A stretch of 64,000 nt of DNA from Rouxiella badensis (GTDB taxonomy: Bacteria > Pseudomonadota > Gammaproteobacteria > Enterobacterales > Enterobacteriaceae): the NCBI RefSeq assembly GCF_002093665.1, contig NZ_MRWE01000003.1, positions 62,001-126,000 of the forward strand. The letters run 5' to 3'. Below, in pieces: positions 16,973-25,850 of the stretch. The notes beneath the pieces are model-generated. The model worked only from the letters and a program-made list of their open reading frames with translations. It was not told where the DNA came from and did not search any database. Within the stretch, counting starts at the first letter, position 1, and every line of letters starts with the position of its first letter. The translations under genes were made by a program, and so were the position numbers.

Positions 16973-18889
16973 CTAGATACGGCTTAAGCAGTCGATGGCA
17001 ATCGCCTTGAAACTCTCAAAATTCTCACTGCTTAACAGCCGGCTCATCGACCGTTCACGCACAAAGGTCACGAACAGGTCATAGATAGCCATCGCTTCCT
17101 CGTAGTCGGCCTTGCTGATCGCCAGCAGGAAAATCACGTGCGCCGTCTCCCCTTCGCCCCAAGTGATGCCCTGCGGGGACAAGACCGTAATCACCACCGT
17201 CTTTTTCGCCAGCAGTCCCAACGAATGAGGCAGCGCGATACCCTCGCCCAGCATGGTGGAAACAATCTCCTCACGCTCGACCACCGAAGGGTGAAACTCT
17301 TCGTCGACATAGCCTTCCTGCTCGAGCTGAGTACAAATCTTTTGAAACAGCTGGGCCTGGGTCATAGGTTGGTCGAGACGCATAAAGTGGTGCCGGTCGA
17401 AGAATTTCTCCAGCATGTAGGGCCGCGTGCGGTCCACCAACACCAGTTTACCGAGCTGCTCCATCTGGAACTCGGTCGGGAAAGGAGACAGCACCACCAC
17501 CGGCTTGTTGCGCTCCGCTACGCGCGCGTTGGCGATAATAAAATCTTCATCGATATGCCGGAGATTTTCATAGTCTCGCAGCGAAATAACCTGAGTTATG
17601 ACGATTTGTGGGAACTTGCGGCTAATTTGCGCCTGAATCATCCTGATGGTCGAATTGCCGGTGTCGCACACCAGCATCGCCTGCGGATGGCGCTGATAGC
17701 CGATATTGTAATGACGCTCTAATCCCACGCCGATGTGCAGCACTAAAAAGCCGATTTCGTTCTCGCTGAGGCTGTACGGCGTATATTTCCCCCAGCTCGA
17801 CACCGCGGCCAGCGTGACGTCATAGGCCATCGGATAGTGCTGCTTGATGTTGTTGAGCAGCGGATTCGGAATATTAATCTGGTATTTAACCCGGGTAATC
17901 ATCGCCTTGATGTGGGTCAGCAAGTCGGACCTAAGCTGTTTATCTCCTTGTAAATCATAATTATAATGCGCATTAATGTAGGAGAGAATGTAGTCCACCA
18001 GCGACTCTTCGTCGTCAGCATTGATATCGGTCGGCAGAATACTTTGCAGACGGCGGGCGGCAATATTGACCCGCAGATAGGCCTCTTCAGCCGCCGGAAT
18101 TTCCTTCCCTACCATTCGCTTAAGCTCAGCGGCAAGCTGCGTAGAAACCTGCTTGATCGCCGGTTCTTCCTCTTCGGCATCGAAATCAGTCAGCGGATAC
18201 CCCCCGGCGATGCGTTTTACCGCCACCGCACAGTAGAGAATCAGGTATTTTTCCCCTTCGTCGGTTAAGCGGATAGACGATCGCGCCAACAGTCGATGCA
18301 TAAAGTCGGTGAGTGGTTGCAGCGCCTCGGACTCGAGGCTTTCGGCTTTAAGGAACGGGCTGATTTGGTCATCGTTATTGAGCTGGAACAGCAGGTCGGT
18401 CAGGCAGGCGCGATGCGCGAGTTCGGATCCAAACAGCTTCATGCCGTAGCGCGGTTTAGTCTCGATGGTCAGATGGTAACGCGCAAGATGCTCACGGACT
18501 TCAGGCATATCGTTTTGCAGCGTGCCTCGACTGACGAACCACTCGTCGGCCAGATCCTCCAATTTGAGCGAAAAGGCCGAGGTCAGAAAACGGATCAGCA
18601 AGCGATTGACCCGCTCCGCCGCACTGCGTGGCGTAGGGTTAGCCGGTTTTACCGGCTGCTGAAGGGTAGAGAACAGCGCGGCATCGTCTATCCTGAGCTG
18701 ATAACCGCTGCCGCGATTGTGCACAAAGCTCGCCCCATACTGTTGAATAATTTCATTAAGTGCCGTGACATCGGCGCGCACGGTGCGCGTCGACACCGCC
18801 AGGCGTTTCGCCAGCTCATCCTGCGGCAGCGTTTCCGTTTGCAGAGCATCGAACAATACGGCTAATCGTTGATTGGGAAATCTCACCAT
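16973..18889 (-). CDS. BglG/MtlR-type transcription activator with PRD, EIIB and EIIA domains
   Basis: A 638-residue PTS-controlled regulator. In order: HTH_11 DNA-binding domain (about 5-60), second helix-turn-helix of the Mga type (about 90-170), PRD1 (about 190-290), PRD2 (about 295-395), a EIIB-like domain with Cys408 in VCDTGNST, and a fructose/mannitol-type EIIA domain with His555 in IALPHS. PRD2 keeps both usual histidines (His326, His385). PRD1 shows none at the equivalent places (LILYCAVAVKR, AYLRVNIAARR). Such proteins activate sugar operons when PTS phosphorylation signals substrate uptake. It is the last gene of the minus-strand cluster and probably controls it. Confidence 0.88.
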   Translation of the reverse strand: MVRFPNQRLAVLFDALQTETLPQDELAKRLAVSTRTVRADVTALNEIIQQYGASFVHNRGSGYQLRIDDAALFSTLQQPVKPANPTPRSAAERVNRLLIRFLTSAFSLKLEDLADEWFVSRGTLQNDMPEVREHLARYHLTIETKPRYGMKLFGSELAHRACLTDLLFQLNNDDQISPFLKAESLESEALQPLTDFMHRLLARSSIRLTDEGEKYLILYCAVAVKRIAGGYPLTDFDAEEEEPAIKQVSTQLAAELKRMVGKEIPAAEEAYLRVNIAARRLQSILPTDINADDEESLVDYILSYINAHYNYDLQGDKQLRSDLLTHIKAMITRVKYQINIPNPLLNNIKQHYPMAYDVTLAAVSSWGKYTPYSLSENEIGFLVLHIGVGLERHYNIGYQRHPQAMLVCDTGNSTIRMIQAQISRKFPQIVITQVISLRDYENLRHIDEDFIIANARVAERNKPVVVLSPFPTEFQMEQLGKLVLVDRTRPYMLEKFFDRHHFMRLDQPMTQAQLFQKICTQLEQEGYVDEEFHPSVVEREEIVSTMLGEGIALPHSLGLLAKKTVVITVLSPQGITWGEGETAHVIFLLAISKADYEEAMAIYDLFVTFVRERSMSRLLSSENFESFKAIAIDCLSRI

Positions 18890-18902
18890 AAACCTTCTGT
18901 TT

Positions 18903-20102
18903 TCAGGGCACCATCACCATCTGCGACGGGCTGCCAACCGCAGTATAGTCGTCGACAAAAATTAATTTTCCACTGCCGGTCTCAACCTTGAATCTTGTGA
19001 TGTTATCGCTGCGCTGATTCATGGCGTAAACGAATTTGCCGTCTACCGACAGCGTCAGGGTGCGAGGATAGTCGCCACGCGTCCAGACTTCCCCGACCCA
19101 GTGCATCTCGCCGCTGCCGGTGACGTCAATCTGCGCGATGCTGTTATGCAGTCGATTGGCGACGTACAGGTGCTTACCGTCGTGGCTCAGCACAATTCCG
19201 GCGGCAAAGTTAGTGCCTTTGAAATTGGGTGGCAGCGTCGAGAGGCTGTGCAGTTCGCTCAGGGTACCGGTGGCCTTGTCGACGCGATAGCTGGTCAGCA
19301 CCGAGGCTTCTTCGTTAATCAAGAACGCCAGGCTGCCATTAGGATGGAACACAAAATGGCGCGGCCCGGCGCCTGGAGACGAGGCGTTGATAAACGGCGG
19401 CGTGTTCGCCTCAAGCTGGCCGTTGGACGGATTCAGCTTCCACTGATAGATGCGGTCCAGACCCAGGTCGGTCGAGAACACAAACTTGCCGCTCGGATCG
19501 GTCGCAATCATGTGGGCGTGCGGGCCATTGTGGTCGCTGATGGCAAAGCTGCCCTCGGCTGCCGCAGCAGGTTTTCCTGCCCCCGCTGGGCCTGAATCCT
19601 GATGTACCGAACTGGCCTCACCCAGCTTGCCGCTGCCGTCAATCGGAAATACGGCAACGATACCGCTGATATAGTTAGCCACCAGCAGACGATCGCCCGC
19701 TGGCGTCAGGGACAGATAAACCGGGCCTGCGCCCTGTGAATCGACCTGATTAATCAGGCTCAGGCTGCCGTCTTCGGGGTTGATGTGATACGCGGCGATA
19801 GCGCCGTGCTTACCGCCGTTGTAGTTATCGACCTCGCTGCCGACGTAGAGCGTTTTGCCTGATTTACCGACCACCATCTGTGCCTGATTCGGAAATTGAC
19901 TCACCAGCACGCGGTCACTCAGCGCACCGGATTTCTCGTCAACCTTGAAGCGATAAACGCCTTCGCCGTTCGGATTGTAAGTGCCTACATAGGCATAGTG
20001 AGATGTCTCGTGCGTCATGGCCTTCTCTGCTGCATACAGCGGCACGGCAGATACTGCCAGCAGCGCTGAGGTTAAACCCGAAATACGTAACCAGTTTCTC
20101 AT
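18903..20102 (-). CDS. Periplasmic lactonase-family beta-propeller protein
   Basis: A 399-residue protein with a signal peptide (about 1-24, ending in LYAA) and a lactonase fold (PF10282), the seven-bladed propeller family of YbhE/Pgl. The family hydrolyses 6-phosphogluconolactone or related lactones. Export to the periplasm argues against the usual cytosolic 6-phosphogluconolactonase role and suggests opening of an external sugar lactone to an acid that the cluster then imports. It lies between the regulator gene and the dgaF-like gene on the same strand. The substrate is an inference. Confidence 0.75.
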   Translation of the reverse strand: MRNWLRISGLTSALLAVSAVPLYAAEKAMTHETSHYAYVGTYNPNGEGVYRFKVDEKSGALSDRVLVSQFPNQAQMVVGKSGKTLYVGSEVDNYNGGKHGAIAAYHINPEDGSLSLINQVDSQGAGPVYLSLTPAGDRLLVANYISGIVAVFPIDGSGKLGEASSVHQDSGPAGAGKPAAAAEGSFAISDHNGPHAHMIATDPSGKFVFSTDLGLDRIYQWKLNPSNGQLEANTPPFINASSPGAGPRHFVFHPNGSLAFLINEEASVLTSYRVDKATGTLSELHSLSTLPPNFKGTNFAAGIVLSHDGKHLYVANRLHNSIAQIDVTGSGEMHWVGEVWTRGDYPRTLTLSVDGKFVYAMNQRSDNITRFKVETGSGKLIFVDDYTAVGSPSQMVMVP

Positions 20103-20159
20103 CGTTCCTCTCTATGCTTTTAATCAAAACAACAGCTACTTACAACCCGAAAACCGCAT

Positions 20160-20900
20160 TTAAGCTAACAATTTTTTAACACTCGCCAACAGCGTGCGGA
20201 CATCCTCCGGGCGCGTATTGCCGGTGGCGCTGTCGATGATGGAACTGTAGATATGCGGAATGATTTTGCTGACGCCGGCATCCAGTGCAATCTGCATAAT
20301 CTGGTCGAAGTTTTGCAGATCGATACCGCCGGTCGGTTCGAGCCAAAAGTCCTGCTCGGCGCAGGCGCGCGCCACGCAGGCAAATTCTTCACGGGTTTTC
20401 AGGCCGCCCATTGGGAAATATTTCACCGAACTGCCGCCCATGTCTTTCAACAAGGCGATAGCCGTATCAACAGGAACGATGCCATCACTGGCCTCGGAGC
20501 TCAGCGGTCCGGTAGAGATTTTGACCCAGCCAACCTTGCCGGTCGGAGAAATTAGACCGTTAACCACGCTGTCATTCTGGCCGAGCAGTGCACGGCTGGT
20601 CCCGACGCCGGTAAACACCTGATTCACGTGCTGCGGCTGTACCTGCTGGGAAATCTGGCTCACCATTTGTGACTGACGTGGATCGCCCGCGCCCAGTCCG
20701 ACCGACAGCGCATTATCAATCAACGCCGCATAGTCCTTCATATCCGCGACGGCACGCTCTACGGTGGCGTAGTGCTTCGACAACACGCCCACCAGCACAT
20801 GTCCCTCTGCGGCTTCGTAGATTTCACGGGCGTTGCCTTTCGATCCGGCGAGCACGTTAAGACAGACGCGATCGCGATAGAAATTGGGGGTCAGCTTCAT
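20160..20900 (-). CDS. DgaF-like 2-dehydro-3-deoxy-phosphogluconate (KDGP) aldolase
   Basis: A 246-residue KDGP aldolase family protein (DgaF type). It resembles the enzyme of the Salmonella D-glucosaminate operon, which splits KDGP to pyruvate and glyceraldehyde-3-phosphate. Conserved features include GWVKISTGPLSSEASDGIVPVDTA and WLEPTGGIDL near the C-terminus. Its start overlaps the upstream dgaE-like stop by 4 nt (ATGA), so the two enzymes are translationally coupled and probably consecutive steps. Confidence 0.85.
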   Translation of the reverse strand: MKLTPNFYRDRVCLNVLAGSKGNAREIYEAAEGHVLVGVLSKHYATVERAVADMKDYAALIDNALSVGLGAGDPRQSQMVSQISQQVQPQHVNQVFTGVGTSRALLGQNDSVVNGLISPTGKVGWVKISTGPLSSEASDGIVPVDTAIALLKDMGGSSVKYFPMGGLKTREEFACVARACAEQDFWLEPTGGIDLQNFDQIMQIALDAGVSKIIPHIYSSIIDSATGNTRPEDVRTLLASVKKLLA

Positions 20901-22015
20901 GCTTTCTCTCCGGTAAACAGGGCTTTAAAACAGTCGGCTACGGTGACAAGCTGCGACGGCGTCACGCTGCGTACATCGACGTCAATCTTGCCTTCATTGG
21001 CGCGATAGCCACGAAAGTAAATCGCAATCTTGCCGTTCTTCATCGCCTCGACGATGGCTTTGGTTTTCCAACCCAGCGCCGCCTCGTCAAAGGTGATTTC
21101 GGTACGGGCGATATCGCGTCCCGCGCTGTCCCACACCACCCGCGCCGAGACACCGCTAATCTCGTTCAGGCTATTGATAAATGGCGTCATCTTGTCGACC
21201 ATCTCCTGCCCGCTGGTTTTCGGCAGAGTGATATAGCTTTCAATCGCCTGCGTCAGCCCGAGGATGCCCTCTTTGCCGACCTTCATCGCACGACCAATGC
21301 CGCCAGACTGGAGCTTCACCCAGTCTACGTACTGTTTCTTTCCGAGTACCAGTCCGCTGGTTGGGCCTTCAATCGCCTTGGCACCGCTGTAAATCACCAG
21401 GTCCGCCCCCATTTCGTAGTAGCAGGTCAGGTCTTCCTCAGCGGCAGCATCAACAATCAGCGGCAGATTGTGGGCACGTGCCACCTCAGCGGCTTCTTCG
21501 ACCGACAGGATGCTTTTTTGCACCGAGTGGTGTGACTTGATATAAAGAACCGCGGCCGTACGCGTTGTGATTGCCGCCGCCAGCTGTGCCGCAGAGCACT
21601 CATTGGCATAGCCCGCTTCAATCACCTTGCCGCCGCCCATGGTGACCATCGTGGCAACAGGCGCACCGTAGTTGACGTTATGCCCCTTCGGCAGCACGAT
21701 TTCGTCAGGCACAGTCAAGGATGCGGCGTGCAAATTTTCCAGTAACCAGGCGTCATCTTTGACGATCACCGCCGCGACAGACTGCGCGATACCGGCGGAA
21801 GCACAGGACACCACGACGGCGCTCTCGACGTTAAGCAGCTTTGCAATATAGGCACCGGTTTTGTTCACCAGATCTTTCATCTCGAAGAAGTGGTTGAGGC
21901 CGGTATTAACCCCCTCGGCGACGTCGGCGCGTGGGGTTGATACTCCCAGAATCGTCATGCGGCCTGAGGCGTTAATCACCTGTTTTAAATCGTACTTTTC
22001 ATAGACTGAAGACAT
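20897..22015 (-). CDS. DgaE/SelA-like PLP enzyme, probable amino-sugar-acid phosphate ammonia-lyase
   Basis: A 372-residue fold-type I PLP protein of the SelA-like family that includes DgaE (D-glucosaminate-6-phosphate ammonia-lyase). The PLP lysine is in the YSGAKAIEGPTSG motif, preceded by IVDAAAEED. Start 22015 (MSSVYEKYDLKQ) is preferred over the in-frame start at 22033 because GGGAAG precedes it at good spacing; it overlaps the amidohydrolase stop. It would deaminate and dehydrate a 2-amino-sugar acid 6-phosphate to KDGP for the adjacent aldolase. Confidence 0.85.
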   Translation of the reverse strand: MSSVYEKYDLKQVINASGRMTILGVSTPRADVAEGVNTGLNHFFEMKDLVNKTGAYIAKLLNVESAVVVSCASAGIAQSVAAVIVKDDAWLLENLHAASLTVPDEIVLPKGHNVNYGAPVATMVTMGGGKVIEAGYANECSAAQLAAAITTRTAAVLYIKSHHSVQKSILSVEEAAEVARAHNLPLIVDAAAEEDLTCYYEMGADLVIYSGAKAIEGPTSGLVLGKKQYVDWVKLQSGGIGRAMKVGKEGILGLTQAIESYITLPKTSGQEMVDKMTPFINSLNEISGVSARVVWDSAGRDIARTEITFDEAALGWKTKAIVEAMKNGKIAIYFRGYRANEGKIDVDVRSVTPSQLVTVADCFKALFTGEKA

Positions 22016-23138
22016 TTTTAGACTTCCCTTCATCCGTTAATAGCGGCTCACCGGCGACGACGGTCGCCAGCGGCACCAGAATGCGGTCACCCTTGACCGA
22101 CTGCCCCTGCGAATCGACAAATACCTGCGGCGCATGAGCAATATCAAACAGCGTGAGGTCCGCATCGCAGCCGGCCTCGAGACGGCCTTTCTGCGGCAGT
22201 CGCAAGGCATCGGCGGCATGGCAAGTGACGCAGTCGATCACCTGCGGCAGCGTGAGGCCGACGCTGAAAAACTTCGACATCACCGTGGCGAGGCTGTGCA
22301 CCGGGCCGTTAATTCGGTTACGGCAGTAAATATCAGAACTGATGGTGTGGGGGATAATCCCCTGGCCGATGGCGACTTCCGCGACCGCAAAGCTGAAACT
22401 GGCCGAACCGTGGCCAACGTCCAGCAATACACCGCGCGCCAGCGCGCGTTTTATCGCATCGCGCAGCTGGCCTTCCGGAGTCAAAATACGGTTTGGCTTG
22501 CCGTTAAAGCAGTGGGTGATGATGTCCCCAGACTCCAGAAGATCGGCAATCTCATCCAGATTCGGCGGATTATTACCGATGTGTACCATCAGCGGTAAAC
22601 GATCGTTTTCCTGCTGAATCTCCTTGGCGCGCACCAGCGGTTGAATGCCGTTTTTACCGACCACGCTGCTGCTCATGCGCGCCTTGAGGCCGACGATAAA
22701 TCCGGGATGACTGGCGATAGCCTGACGAACGCCGACCTTGTCAATCTGCGCCATGTCCGCCAGCTCGTTTTGTGTGACGATGCCGGTGCGGGCGATGTTC
22801 AGAAAAGCAAAGACGTGGGTCTTGGCCTGACGGGTGAGTTGGTAGAAATCATCGACGTCATTGGCACCGGTACTTCCCGCATCGATCACCGTCGTCACAC
22901 CACTGGCCACGCCAATGAGGTCAGGCTCATCGTGATAAATCGGCGACTTCGAATAACAGTGAACGTGCGAGTCAATCCAGCCCGCGCTGAGCCAGTATTT
23001 ACCCTGCAAATCGATAACCTGCCGTGCGGTTGCGCTGTCGTCGAGCTGGCCCACGACGGCCAGCTTGCCGTCGAGGACCGCGATATCGACTCGGCCGCCG
23101 TTAACGTCTTTAGCCTGTCTGAGAATCAAATCGTACAT
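21999..23138 (-). CDS. COG3964 amidohydrolase (often mis-called dihydroorotase)
   Basis: A 379-residue amidohydrolase-superfamily protein. Visible metal-site motifs are the early HVH in IDSHVHCYSKSP, a later HIGNN, THCFNGKP and DVGHGSASF. COG3964 members studied elsewhere are not dihydroorotases; some hydrolyse acetylated hydroxy-acid esters, and they commonly adjoin SelA-like and KDGP-aldolase genes. Here it probably removes an acyl group from the imported compound before the DgaE-like step. Natural substrate unknown. Confidence 0.82.
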   Translation of the reverse strand: MYDLILRQAKDVNGGRVDIAVLDGKLAVVGQLDDSATARQVIDLQGKYWLSAGWIDSHVHCYSKSPIYHDEPDLIGVASGVTTVIDAGSTGANDVDDFYQLTRQAKTHVFAFLNIARTGIVTQNELADMAQIDKVGVRQAIASHPGFIVGLKARMSSSVVGKNGIQPLVRAKEIQQENDRLPLMVHIGNNPPNLDEIADLLESGDIITHCFNGKPNRILTPEGQLRDAIKRALARGVLLDVGHGSASFSFAVAEVAIGQGIIPHTISSDIYCRNRINGPVHSLATVMSKFFSVGLTLPQVIDCVTCHAADALRLPQKGRLEAGCDADLTLFDIAHAPQVFVDSQGQSVKGDRILVPLATVVAGEPLLTDEGKSKNVFSL

Positions 23139-23165
23139 TGGCGATATTTCCGTTTGTTGAGGCGA

Positions 23166-23813
23166 CTACAGCGACACCGGGAAAATAGCCCCAAGGATCA
23201 TCGCCCCCAGGATTGCGCCGCCGGTCAGCGGTTTCTTCCAGATATAGAACACCAGTGCGCCCAGCAGTGAACCCAGGCCGATAGGGATAGAGGCCGCCAT
23301 TGCGGACAGGATAATCAACGGCCCAAGGAAGCGACCGGTTGCGTTGCCTGCGCCCATCATCACGTCTGCGCCGTAGGTCGAGTTCCCCTGATTGATGGTG
23401 AATTTACGCGCCAGAATAATGATGTAACCCACCGCAAGGCCCAAAATCAGGCCGGTTGCCAGCGAGGCGGCGAAATTTGCCACCGGGAAAATAATGCCCG
23501 AGCCCAGCAGCAGCGCAGGAACGCCGAGACCGATACCGGTTTGAATAGCGCCGCCGATGTCGAGGATCCCGACCAGCGAGCCTTCGATGATACGTGCAAA
23601 TAGGAAGCTGGCACCGAAGGCGGCAACCGCGCCGTACACGCCGGTGTCCATGCCGGAACGCAGCATCGACACGAAGGCGACTTCATTGAAGGCACCAATG
23701 CCGTACAGATAATACATATGGGTACCGGCAAACACCCCGGCGGACAGCAGGCCGACAAAAATCGGGAATGACCATTCGGCGTACCAGAAACCCGTTTTGG
23801 CTTGTTCTTCCAT
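23166..23813 (-). CDS. DUF4310 family multi-pass membrane protein
   Basis: A 215-residue very hydrophobic protein with about six membrane segments and glycine-rich helices (for example GIGLGVPALLLGSG). The start at 23813 (MEEQAKTGFW) is chosen because GGGAG stands about 7 nt before it; earlier in-frame starts lie too close to that site or use GTG inside the preceding gene. The family has no established function. It always appears to travel with DUF4311, DUF4312 and SFCGS proteins, which suggests a membrane transporter. I infer one of two permease subunits. Confidence 0.8.
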   Translation of the reverse strand: MEEQAKTGFWYAEWSFPIFVGLLSAGVFAGTHMYYLYGIGAFNEVAFVSMLRSGMDTGVYGAVAAFGASFLFARIIEGSLVGILDIGGAIQTGIGLGVPALLLGSGIIFPVANFAASLATGLILGLAVGYIIILARKFTINQGNSTYGADVMMGAGNATGRFLGPLIILSAMAASIPIGLGSLLGALVFYIWKKPLTGGAILGAMILGAIFPVSL

Positions 23814-23826
23814 CGTCATGCTCCCG

Positions 23827-24603
23827 TTATTTGCCACTGAGTGAGTTATGGATGCCGTTCAGCCAGCTCGGCACGTCCAGCAGGAAAGACTGTAACAGCT
23901 TCACGTCAAAGCCACGGAAGAAGCCGCTCAGCACGAACAGAGCGATAATCGCCGCCATCATCACTTTTGTGACGTGGTTCCAGCCGCCCTCTTCTACGCC
24001 TTTGCCGATAAGGATCCCCAGCACTAATCCCGGCACCGCGTTGCCCATAATCATCTGCGCCAGCCCCCCGAAAATGGTGCCCCAAAAACCGGAGCGACGA
24101 CCGGCGTCAATAGCGGCCAGCCAGAAGATGACCGGCATCACGGTGTTCACCAGCATGTTCGCCGCAGGAACCAGCACCTTAATGGCGGTCACCTGTAACG
24201 CAGGTGGCACCGCCGAGGCCGTGGTATTGAGGAAGGCAACGACAATCATGCCGATGATGCCGCCCGCAATCGCCATCTTGCGCGGGTCGTGCAGGGTCTC
24301 GGCCACGTTGCGATTTTTCATCATCAGCACGGCCGCAGCCCAGTTCGGAATGATGCGGTGGTCAACGTCCTGCGTGAAGGAGCCGGCCGCCACGGAGGAC
24401 GCCCAGGCGTTGAAGAAGAAGCCTAATCCGAACGAGAAATGCGAAGCCGGGTCGCCCTCGCAGGAGTTAAGTTCCCCAAGTGTGCGAAAAGCCCCCATTC
24501 CCTGCACGGTGGGCGCATGGAACATACGGGCAGCCCCTGCACCTACGCCGACCCCCACCAGCCCGCCGATAATAAGCGACTTAATTAAGATAATTAAAAA
24601 CAT
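23827..24603 (-). CDS. DUF4311 family multi-pass membrane protein
   Basis: A 258-residue hydrophobic protein with six or seven membrane segments. It includes a conserved polar stretch (LGELNSCEGDPASHFSFG, residues about 42-59) and QDVDHRIIPNW. An AAGGAT ribosome site precedes the ATG at 24603. The function is unknown. Together with DUF4310 it forms a two-membrane-protein pair resembling the IIC/IID organisation of mannose-type PTS, although I see no clear homology by eye. Confidence 0.8.
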   Translation of the reverse strand: MFLIILIKSLIIGGLVGVGVGAGAARMFHAPTVQGMGAFRTLGELNSCEGDPASHFSFGLGFFFNAWASSVAAGSFTQDVDHRIIPNWAAAVLMMKNRNVAETLHDPRKMAIAGGIIGMIVVAFLNTTASAVPPALQVTAIKVLVPAANMLVNTVMPVIFWLAAIDAGRRSGFWGTIFGGLAQMIMGNAVPGLVLGILIGKGVEEGGWNHVTKVMMAAIIALFVLSGFFRGFDVKLLQSFLLDVPSWLNGIHNSLSGK

Positions 24604-24683
24604 CAGGTTATCCTTGTGATTTTATATATCTACGCTGCGGGATTAACCTCCCCCGAGGAAACTGCCTGACATGCAGCGGATAT

Positions 24684-24980
24684 TTATTTTTTGGTGAATA
24701 TGACCTGCTCGGTATTTATTACTGTCATATTGACGGTAATATCTAACGCCACGTAGTAACTCTTCCTTTCTCTTGGCAGAAAAAAGAACAGAAACTTCTC
24801 ATGGGTTATCTTCTCTTCTGCTGTAATTACCTTGACGTCCTGCGGTTCAATGCGCAGCAAAATATTATCAGTAGATTTGAGAACGGTTTTTTGAACCTGG
24901 CTTAGTGCGGAAGAAAAGGCCGCGGCCTTTGTTTCGCCCTTTCCCTCAACCCTGACCGTGGAAGTTAAATGCTGCTTCAT
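24684..24980 (-). CDS. DUF4312 family small soluble protein
   Basis: A 98-residue protein without signal peptide or membrane helix. It starts at the SFCGS stop codon (TAATG overlap), which implies coupled translation and a likely shared complex. The central part carries a basic, aromatic patch (KFLFFFLPRERKSYY). The function is unknown. Its size and place fit a small cytoplasmic partner of the DUF4310/4311 membrane pair. Confidence 0.78.
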   Translation of the reverse strand: MKQHLTSTVRVEGKGETKAAAFSSALSQVQKTVLKSTDNILLRIEPQDVKVITAEEKITHEKFLFFFLPRERKSYYVALDITVNMTVINTEQVIFTKK

Positions 24981-25345
24981 TACGGCTGGCCATTTTTCTT
25001 GATATAAGATTCAACTAATTTCTGACCCAGCTCTTCTTTATCCATAAAACCAAACCCCAGCACCGAGCAGCCTTCGTTGATGGCGGTCACGCCTTCTTCA
25101 ACCGAACGCATGCCGTGCTTGGCCTTGTAGCCATATTTGTTCTGCGCCGTGATAGCGCCTGCGCCACCGCTGCCACAGAACGAGATGCCGAAGGTTGCGC
25201 CTTCTGCCTTCATGACGTCGCCAAGCTTCATGTCAGCCGCAACGCCGGGGATGACCACGGCCTTACCGCCTGCCGCTTCCACACCGGCTGCAACTTTCTG
25301 GCCTTTACCTAAACGGTCGCCGATAACTACGATGACTTGTCCCAT
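24980..25345 (-). CDS. Glycine-rich SFCGS family protein, possible EIIB-like component
   Basis: A 121-residue soluble protein. The family-defining loop is FCGSGGAGAIT with Cys57, following a beta strand, and a second cysteine is Cys93. The loop resembles the phosphocysteine P-loop of PTS EIIB proteins, and the N-terminal IGDRLGKGQ recalls the DDRLIHGQ segment of mannose-type EIIB without its histidine. These are resemblances only. A GGAGAG site precedes the start. It is coupled to DUF4312 and follows the PRD gene. Confidence 0.78.
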   Translation of the reverse strand: MGQVIVVIGDRLGKGQKVAAGVEAAGGKAVVIPGVAADMKLGDVMKAEGATFGISFCGSGGAGAITAQNKYGYKAKHGMRSVEEGVTAINEGCSVLGFGFMDKEELGQKLVESYIKKNGQP

Positions 25346-25386
25346 ATTTAAACTCTCCAGATAAGTTGTTGGTGATAACTAAGTTA

Positions 25387-25420
25387 ATTGTTGTTGTCTT
25401 TATTCATTGTTGTTGTCTTT
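25387..25420. repeat. 19-bp-period tandem duplication at the PRD gene end
   Basis: ATTGTTGTTGTCTTT occurs at 25387-25401 and again at 25406-25420. The second copy encodes the KDNNN C-terminus of the PRD protein. The stop codon falls between the copies. Confidence 0.85.
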
Positions 25421-25723
25421 TGCCACTTCAAAATGAACCGAGAGCAAATAGGCCTCTTCAATCGGTAAATTTCCCAGCATCTCGACAACCTCTTCTGCCA
25501 TTTTCATTGAGCCAGGCGATATTTCATCAAACAGGTCTTTATCAACCTCCGGCAAAGGTTCGCCGGTAATTGAACGCAGCACCATGGCTTTTACGTGAGA
25601 GGTCAACATTTGCTGCTGAACGTCATTGGTAAATATATTTTCGGCGTTCAGCATCTTCTGAATATCTGCCAATAATTGCTCGGTTCTTGCTGGCGCATCT
25701 TTTAATTCAAGTGCATTCTTCAT
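25400..25723 (-). CDS. Stand-alone PRD-domain protein
   Basis: A 107-residue protein that is essentially one PTS regulation domain. It has two histidines at typical PRD positions, His43 (LTSHVKAMVLR) and His97 (LLSVHFEV), and no DNA- or RNA-binding domain. It is the first gene of the minus-strand cluster. A free PRD could be phosphorylated by the PTS and modulate the large regulator at 16973-18889. Its 3' end carries a 19-bp tandem duplication. Confidence 0.8.
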   Translation of the reverse strand: MKNALELKDAPARTEQLLADIQKMLNAENIFTNDVQQQMLTSHVKAMVLRSITGEPLPEVDKDLFDEISPGSMKMAEEVVEMLGNLPIEEAYLLSVHFEVAKDNNNE

Positions 25724-25830: not shown

Positions 25831-25850
25831 TTTCCAGTTCAAACTGGAAA
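25831..25850. promoter_or_regulatory. Perfect palindrome upstream of the accessory operon, candidate operator
   Basis: TTTCCAGTT-N2-AACTGGAAA is a perfect 9+9 inverted repeat about 108 bp upstream of the first gene (PRD) of the accessory cluster. The 280-bp gap between this gene and cybC holds no other gene. The position fits an activator site for the BglG/MtlR-type regulator. No clear -35/-10 pair was chosen. Confidence 0.6.

Follow-up and report, generated by a model that had tools for sequence, protein, structure and literature searches.

Among the closest described systems is the Salmonella dgaABCDEF operon, which comprises a mannose-type phosphotransferase system (PTS), DgaE and DgaF, together with DgaR; in the available parts of PMC9529869, the substrate of the DgaE relative is the 6-phosphate produced by PTS import. 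The Ong pathway of Pseudoalteromonas, which acts on GlcNAc1A from oxidised chitin, has its own OngB, OngC (a fold-type III PLP enzyme), KdgK, SSS transporter and unphosphorylated substrate (PMC9537276, available text). The gene set considered here matches, above cut-off, the models of the hypothetical NCBIfam/TIGRFAM families EF_0829-EF_0839 / AHA_3910-AHA_3917. The EF_0829-EF_0839 model names carry no function, and among the matches listed in open-licence literature for family names, accessions, locus tags and general phrases, no paper addressed the function of the SFCGS/DUF4310-4312 block. New here are a putative operator, a predicted RpiB-like fold for SFCGS, and a link to an HPr-enzyme I (HPr-EI) protein.

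The locus lies in the window, the 64,000-nucleotide stretch of Rouxiella badensis DNA analysed (Table 1). Like Salmonella dga, it encodes a DgaF equivalog and a DgaE-subfamily enzyme, shows PRD-type regulation and contains no kinase. In contrast to dga, it lacks DgaABCD, in whose place SFCGS, DUF4310-4312 and the PRD protein are found; it adds a deacylase and a lactonase; its DgaE falls under the equivalog cut-off; and no sigma-54-like site was detected in 77 upstream regions of the operon with one consensus pattern. With the Ong pathway it would share a deacylase, a deaminase and a KDG(P) intermediate (PMC9537276, available text). The genome itself (72 contigs) yields a single mannose-type EIIC match, which adjoins ManX- and ManZ-like ORFs; therefore, it contains no dgaABCD.

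Table 1. Features of the cluster, with positions in the window.
Feature	Position	Strand	Assignment
Stand-alone PRD protein	25400..25723	-	TIGR03582; 107 aa (Pfam, NCBIfam)
SFCGS protein	24980..25345	-	TIGR03577; 121 aa (Pfam, NCBIfam)
DUF4312 protein	24684..24980	-	TIGR03578; 98 aa; soluble, no hydrophobic segment
DUF4311 membrane protein	23827..24603	-	TIGR03580; 258 aa; hydropathy
DUF4310 membrane protein	23166..23837	-	TIGR03579; 223 aa from GTG start; hydropathy
Amidohydrolase, probable N-deacylase	21999..23138	-	TIGR03583 (EF_0837)
DgaE-family PLP ammonia lyase	20897..22018	-	TIGR01437
DgaF, KDGP aldolase	20160..20900	-	TIGR03581; NF047796 above cut-off
Lactonase, seven-bladed, accessory	18903..20102	-	PF10282; hydropathy
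Transcription regulator (HTH, Mga, PRD and EIIA-2 domains)	16973..18889	-	638 aa (Pfam, NCBIfam)
20-bp palindrome TTTCC-N10-GGAAA, probable operator	25831..25850		108-127 bp upstream of PRD start

The preliminary description had reported PRD, SFCGS, DUF4312, DUF4311, DUF4310, amidohydrolase, DgaE and DgaF genes on one strand, and Pfam and NCBIfam confirm this set, all eight TIGR models (03582, 03577, 03578, 03580, 03579, 03583, 01437, 03581) being matched above cut-off. Its details of gene coupling also stand: the SFCGS stop and the DUF4312 start have one base in common (TAATG), and the DgaE and DgaF genes overlap by 4 bp. DUF4310 and DUF4311 overlap by 11 bp, provided that the GTG start of DUF4310 is used; later ATG starts are also possible, and the DgaE-like gene has a further in-frame ATG upstream, at 22033. 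As had been stated, neither a sugar kinase nor a known PTS permease was found: among the ten cluster-region proteins scanned against Pfam and NCBIfam there was no kinase and no PTS EII domain besides the EIIA-2 domain of the regulator. The operator, the adjacent HTH-PRD-EIIA regulator and the lactonase had been passed over; the lactonase gene opens the span then considered, and the regulator gene lies just outside it.

The nine core genes occur in the same order on one strand in 79 of 84 stretches, each longer than 10 kb and chosen for encoding DUF4311, the window included; this shared grouping is not due to chance. One stretch, from Enterococcus faecalis, has the regulator first. Four stretches are incomplete: L067 and L109 end at a contig edge, L070 probably does likewise, and L040 carries an internal deletion. 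Of nine further independent loci, eight repeat the nine-gene order and one starts with the regulator; these nine are the twelve additional loci minus L196, L198 and L200, which are the same DNA as L075, L059 and L073. The locus sets, drawn from two genome searches, overlap partly, and identical protein rows were removed before residue-conservation counts. DUF4310 is present in 69 of 149 genomes of the organism's own family (one copy broken), and the lactonase in 41 of the 84 stretches. DUF4311 is 67-88% identical to nine relatives and DUF4310 70-87% identical to five.

Of 77 upstream regions, 75 have the palindrome ahead of the PRD gene, as do all nine further independent loci; it occurs 84 times in 1.81 Mb of loci longer than 10 kb. 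With a tighter pattern, this site is the only perfect match in its own genome, one more being found at 2 mismatches. The palindrome is a putative, and probable, binding site of the regulator. In the latter, H326, H385, C408 and H555, which include the PRD and EIIA histidines, are kept in 95-99% of 82 sequences, an alignment from which a 150-bit filter left out the E. faecalis row. The Cys408 stretch, which no model matched, resembles what we take to be an EIIB loop. PTS-type regulation, as previously proposed, accords with these histidines and with a stand-alone PRD bearing two conserved His.

DgaF scores 392.7 bits against the equivalog model NF047796 (cut-off 300), whereas the DgaE-like enzyme, with its conserved SHH stretch, reaches 358.9 bits against NF047797 (cut-off 600); because of this shortfall, its substrate may differ from that of DgaE, even in phosphorylation. 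The amidohydrolase has solved relatives (8wzy, 2ics), and hydropathy gives the lactonase an N-terminal hydrophobic, signal-peptide-like segment.

Conserved residues able to take phosphate exist in the cluster, namely H43 and H97 of the PRD protein and C57 of SFCGS. Both PRD histidines, presumably the usual PRD phosphorylation sites, are found in 84 of 84 sequences, and this conservation makes the PRD protein a candidate His phosphocarrier, a role that the preliminary description had not considered. In SFCGS, Cys57 is present in 104 of 104 sequences, and Asp10 and Arg11 are conserved. The best predicted structure of SFCGS (mean pLDDT 87.0) has the RpiB/LacAB fold according to Foldseek and VIA matches; Cys57 aligns with the Cys of the RpiB/LacAB CGTG loop, its own loop being Cys-Gly-Ser-Gly, so that the predicted fold and a Cys-Gly-[ST]-Gly loop would be common to both. 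At the sequence level, PF02502 was absent from the hits of the window protein at E 0.001 and also at E 10; weak PF02502 matches occur in 15 of 20 SFCGS members (best E 0.0027), and the unrelated-looking DUF1685 matches 10 of 20 (0.0036). SFCGS is a candidate for either a Cys57 phosphocarrier or an isomerase-like enzyme.

A connection to phosphoenolpyruvate (PEP) is strengthened by a plasmid of Bartonella sp. HY406, which carries the operon, the regulator and, after the operon, a gene for a 671-aa HPr-EI with intact HPr and EI His motifs; Bartonella HY761 has the same series of genes. This adjacency is an association seen only in these two plasmids. No other PTS genes are annotated on the HY406 plasmid record, and when eight PTS or kinase proteins were used as tblastn queries, HPr-EI alone was found on that plasmid. 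Seven Burkholderiaceae relatives of HPr-EI among the matches listed are 53.7-55.0% identical, and the one opened (55%) is an EIIA-HPr-EI fusion adjoining an EIIBC permease; because of this, the Bartonella operon can be said to occupy the place of an EII. The Bartonella HPr-EI could nevertheless serve the regulator alone, the search for PTS genes having covered the plasmid. In the genome that contains the window, proteins of EI and EI-Ntr size are present. Together, the PRD histidines, the PRD and EIIA histidines of the regulator and the Bartonella HPr-EI support the earlier claim of a PTS-dependent uptake and catabolic system.

We give roughly an even chance to a self-contained, PTS-driven operon for uptake and catabolism of an N-acylated 2-amino-2-deoxy-aldonic acid of the glucosaminate type. 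The lactonase, where present, would open a lactone outside the cytoplasm, and DUF4310 and DUF4311 would form the membrane permease. With PEP as the donor, enzyme I and HPr would relay phosphate to carriers encoded in the cluster itself, the likeliest sites being His43/His97 of the PRD protein and Cys57 of SFCGS with its RpiB fold, and the phosphate would end at the 6-position of the substrate; DUF4312 might, at a guess, be a structural or coupling subunit. The cytoplasmic amidohydrolase, judging from its family, would strip the acyl group. The DgaE-family enzyme would then free ammonia to give 2-keto-3-deoxygluconate-6-phosphate, and DgaF would cleave this product into pyruvate plus glyceraldehyde-3-phosphate; these reactions are established for the relatives in Salmonella. 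The regulator would read flux via its phosphorylation state and act at the palindrome.

Among the points against a PTS, no kinship with PTS proteins is seen in DUF4310 or DUF4311, and SFCGS looks isomerase-like rather than like an EIIB. The mannose-type layout that the preliminary description had proposed is, unlike PTS dependence, not supported. In a true but divergent mannose-type PTS, SFCGS and DUF4312 would be IIA/IIB, and DUF4311 and DUF4310 IIC/IID. The two soluble and two membrane genes fit, as does the use of a mannose-type PTS for glucosaminate import in Salmonella (PMC4987338, PMC9529869, available parts), but six DUF4310 and ten DUF4311 members, searched in Pfam with E values as high as 10, matched neither EIIC-Man (PF03609) nor EIID-Man. 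Hhalign of the membrane proteins against EIIC and EIID sets also returned nothing, in a comparison insensitive enough that EIIC against EIID likewise gives 1.7%. Moreover, no His is conserved at 90% in SFCGS (104 sequences), neither His nor Cys in DUF4312 (109 sequences), and the predicted SFCGS fold is a different one; this arrangement is very improbable. It is also unlikely, though less so, that SFCGS is a true RpiB/LacAB-type enzyme of the pathway, isomerising or epimerising the sugar acid after import or a precursor of it, with transport left to DUF4310-4312. The predicted fold, the loop at the isomerase Cys position and the conserved Asp10 and Arg11 would suit such an enzyme. RpiB/LacAB catalysis, however, involves the QHND His and a C-terminal Arg-rich stretch; SFCGS has no conserved counterpart of the former and ends ahead of the latter, in an alignment that becomes uncertain outside the Cys loop. 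In addition, known Dga chemistry has no need of an isomerase, and SFCGS is encoded beside the DUF4312-4311-4310 proteins rather than the enzymes.

A non-PTS route is kept alive because the Enterococcus version has a kinase gene. DUF4310/DUF4311 with SFCGS and DUF4312 would make up a conventional transporter, secondary or ECF-like. The acid would enter unphosphorylated, deacylation and deamination would turn it into KDG, a KDG kinase with its gene elsewhere would supply KDGP to DgaF, and the PTS would only regulate. We hold this to be doubtful but well worth considering. In E. faecalis, a PfkB kinase gene adjoins DgaF (the NCBIfam models closest to it, scoring under their cut-offs, are those of KDG kinases), and the cluster also contains a lactose/cellobiose-type EIIC; both fit an unphosphorylated aldonate in that version. 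A dedicated kinase, named in the preliminary description as evidence against its reading, thus has a candidate there but not in the window cluster, nor is the E. faecalis kinase matched in the other stretches, the twelve further loci (nine independent) or the HY406 plasmid, which does carry HPr-EI and no other PTS gene found. Regulation by PRD phosphorylation, furthermore, normally requires an EII that drains phosphate. In favour of such a transporter are also the score of the DgaE-like protein below its equivalog cut-off, weak DUF2232 matches for all ten DUF4311 members (best E 0.00082), and the precedent of the Ong pathway, where unphosphorylated GlcNAc1A, an SSS transporter and a KdgK step are combined (PMC9537276, available text). 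Oxidised chitin, a possible source, is not supported as a general one: in one 295-genome sample with lists compiled by hand, LPMO_10 occurs in 15 of 42 DUF4310 genomes (one DUF4310 row, G567, being a fragment) and 63 of 253 others (Fisher p = 0.18), and none was found in the window's own genome.

PTS-driven uptake may, more tentatively, represent a new PTS class, a possibility that we place well short of even. The stand-alone PRD, so far described, to our knowledge, as a regulatory domain, would be an EIIA-type His carrier, the RpiB-fold protein an EIIB-type Cys carrier and DUF4310/DUF4311 a new permease family, with yhfT-yhfU-yhfY as a second branch of the design. The products of E. coli K-12 yhfSTU-php-yhfWXYZ are annotated 'putative' or 'uncharacterized'. 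The membrane protein YhfT, YhfU, which bears a Cys and weakly resembles RpiB, and the stand-alone PRD YhfY occur together in 5 of 5 loci examined (K-12 and four of six DUF2620 loci), but YhfT has no kinship to DUF4310/4311 detectable in an insensitive comparison, and the other enzymes differ.

If this is true, the PTS gains a permease class with carrier folds absent from known ones, and four or five families of 'unknown function' receive a role together. If it is false, the RpiB-fold protein is still tied to a new membrane-protein family. A true reading would also give a widespread operon a testable substrate class and, by the same logic, open the E. coli K-12 yhf operon, to which no function is assigned, to testing.

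Sequence reading and protein family scans place ten genes on the minus strand at 16973-25723 of the window, and the cluster is real and conserved. The PRD protein, SFCGS, DUF4312, DUF4311, DUF4310, amidohydrolase, DgaE-like and DgaF components named in the preliminary description were all recovered in their places; a lactonase gene and a regulator complete the set. As the gene set has its counterpart in the NCBIfam hypothetical families EF_0829 to EF_0839/AHA_3910 to AHA_3917 (NCBIfam scan), the cluster proteins belong to known families without an assigned function.

Features added to the cluster in the window
Feature	Position	Strand	Remark
Lactonase gene	18903-20102	minus	First gene in the interval of the preliminary description, absent from that description
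Regulator	16973-18889	minus	Adjoins that interval, absent from that description
Operator palindrome	25831-25850		Upstream of the PRD gene; pattern match

DUF4310 was detected in 12 of 398 genomes of a phylum sample, all 12 from the window's own family, in 42 of 295 genomes of an order sample (one a fragment), and in 69 of 149 genomes of a family sample (one a broken gene). Since the best 80 of 539 DUF4311 relatives from a scan of genome contigs were retained, close relatives are over-represented in the loci compared, all of which have DUF4311 through this selection. In the 84 stretches longer than 10 kb, one of them the window, every core gene (all but the lactonase) was detected in 82 to 84, with the DUF4310 tally counting a fragment in L040; the lactonase was present in 41. 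The nine-gene order of the window, on a single strand, recurs in 79 stretches, and the E. faecalis stretch places the regulator first. Four clusters are incomplete (L067, L109, L070, and L040): L067 and L109 are cut at a contig end, and L070 probably likewise. In L040, an Aeromonas caviae KAM479 record, the amidohydrolase and DgaE were not found, and an internal deletion leaves the DUF4310 start joined to the latter half of DgaF (L040:9705-10271). Twelve extra loci, drawn from lower-scoring or more distant DUF4310 matches in the family and order samples, all carry the nine genes and the operator; three are identical in DNA to loci already counted, and eight of the nine independent ones keep the window order, with the regulator in front in the ninth (L199). 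The cluster also occurs in named outliers, namely E. faecalis and a pair of Bartonella plasmids.

Upstream of the PRD gene, at a distance of at most 350 bp, a TTTCC-N10-GGAAA palindrome occurs in 75 of the 77 regions compared, a set that takes one region for each distinct PRD protein and includes that of the window. It is absent from E. faecalis L037 and L095; Bartonella and Chromobacterium also have it. The pattern occurs 84 times across 1.81 Mb of loci >10 kb. In the 4.78-Mb genome of R. badensis, a tighter pattern has one perfect match, the window site, and one more at two mismatches; its reversed control gave one match. This points to a dedicated regulator, which would bind at the palindrome. 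One sigma-54-like consensus pattern, looked for in the 77 regions, was absent.

DUF4310 and DUF4311 each contain several hydrophobic segments (hydropathy). Both are highly conserved: against the divergent relatives aligned, identity is 70 to 87% for DUF4310 and 67 to 88% for DUF4311. Pfam searches at E up to 10 linked neither to a PTS family; for DUF4311 (23827-24603 in the window), all 10 members searched gave a weak hit to DUF2232, the best with E 0.00082. At L141 (G540:C17:16081-16449), an open reading frame of 300 aa matches EIIC-Man below threshold (PF03609, E 9.0e-4) and is possibly a distant EIIC.

Alignments of relatives revealed no conserved histidine in SFCGS or DUF4312. His43 and His97 are kept in 84/84 stand-alone PRD sequences, a protein otherwise variable. 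In the regulator, H326, H385, C408, and H555 are conserved at 95 to 99% across 82 sequences, a set from which a 150-bit filter removed the E. faecalis protein. C408 presumably sits in an EIIB-like loop; none of the EIIB models matched the regulator.

The E. coli K-12 yhf operon (L121:4936-12345) encodes a stand-alone PRD protein, YhfY (PF00874 score just under threshold), a Cys-bearing protein, YhfU, which is weakly RpiB-like (PF02502, E 0.065), and a membrane protein, YhfT. The three occur together in 5/5 loci examined, of which two yielded no YhfS and one no YhfW. The Cys residues of SFCGS and YhfU coincide in an alignment of 4.2% probability and E 0.01, and YhfT has no detectable relationship to DUF4310/4311. 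Because of this weak likeness and the lack of a detectable YhfT relationship, the yhf operon as a possible sister of the present module is a lead only.

The amidohydrolase suggests an N-acylated form of the substrate; oxidised chitin as a general source is unsupported by LPMO co-occurrence. In Salmonella, the substrate is imported via the PTS DgaABCD and the lyase works on the 6-phosphate (PMC9529869, PMC4987338). The E. faecalis cluster (L037:10548-17263), with its additional lactose/cellobiose-type EIIC, 99-aa protein, MupG-like protein, and PfkB kinase (nearest models KDG kinases, score below cut-off), counts against the PTS reading: it fits an acid that reaches the DgaE step unphosphorylated, as in the Ong pathway (PMC9537276). 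Its DgaE-like gene, EF0838, is 'Potentially Critical' in a Tn-seq table row (PMC7701990). In the genome of R. badensis, a mannose-type EIIC was matched once, next to ManX- and ManZ-like ORFs, and two proteins bear an EI domain.

The strongest pointer to a phosphate path is a plasmid of Bartonella sp. HY406, a bat feces isolate. On this 55.7-kb plasmid, the operon and regulator are followed by a 671-aa HPr-enzyme I protein in which both domains retain their histidine motifs; in the operon region viewed, the HY761 plasmid has the same gene run. A type VI secretion cluster and genes for TonB-dependent uptake of the siderophore type are further cargo of the HY406 plasmid (L128:14746-44894). The gene table of this plasmid contains no other PTS gene; as such tables can be incomplete, the plasmid DNA was searched by tblastn with eight queries (EIIA-HPr-EI fusion, EIIBC, lactose-type EIIC, ManX, ManY, ManZ, PtsN, and E. 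faecalis PfkB), and HPr-EI was the only match. Sugar PTS permeases are generally missing from alphaproteobacteria, Bartonella included. Seven listed Burkholderiaceae relatives share 53.7 to 55.0% identity with the Bartonella HPr-EI, and one of them, viewed in its gene context, proved to be an EIIA-HPr-EI fusion adjoining an EIIBC permease. In Bartonella the EIIA part is lacking and the DUF block occupies the position expected of the permease. The preliminary description had SFCGS and DUF4310-4312 import and phosphorylate the substrate in a mannose-type layout; that class is not upheld, but a PTS-coupled system, for which the Bartonella HPr-EI and the PRD histidines argue, is the best-supported reading.
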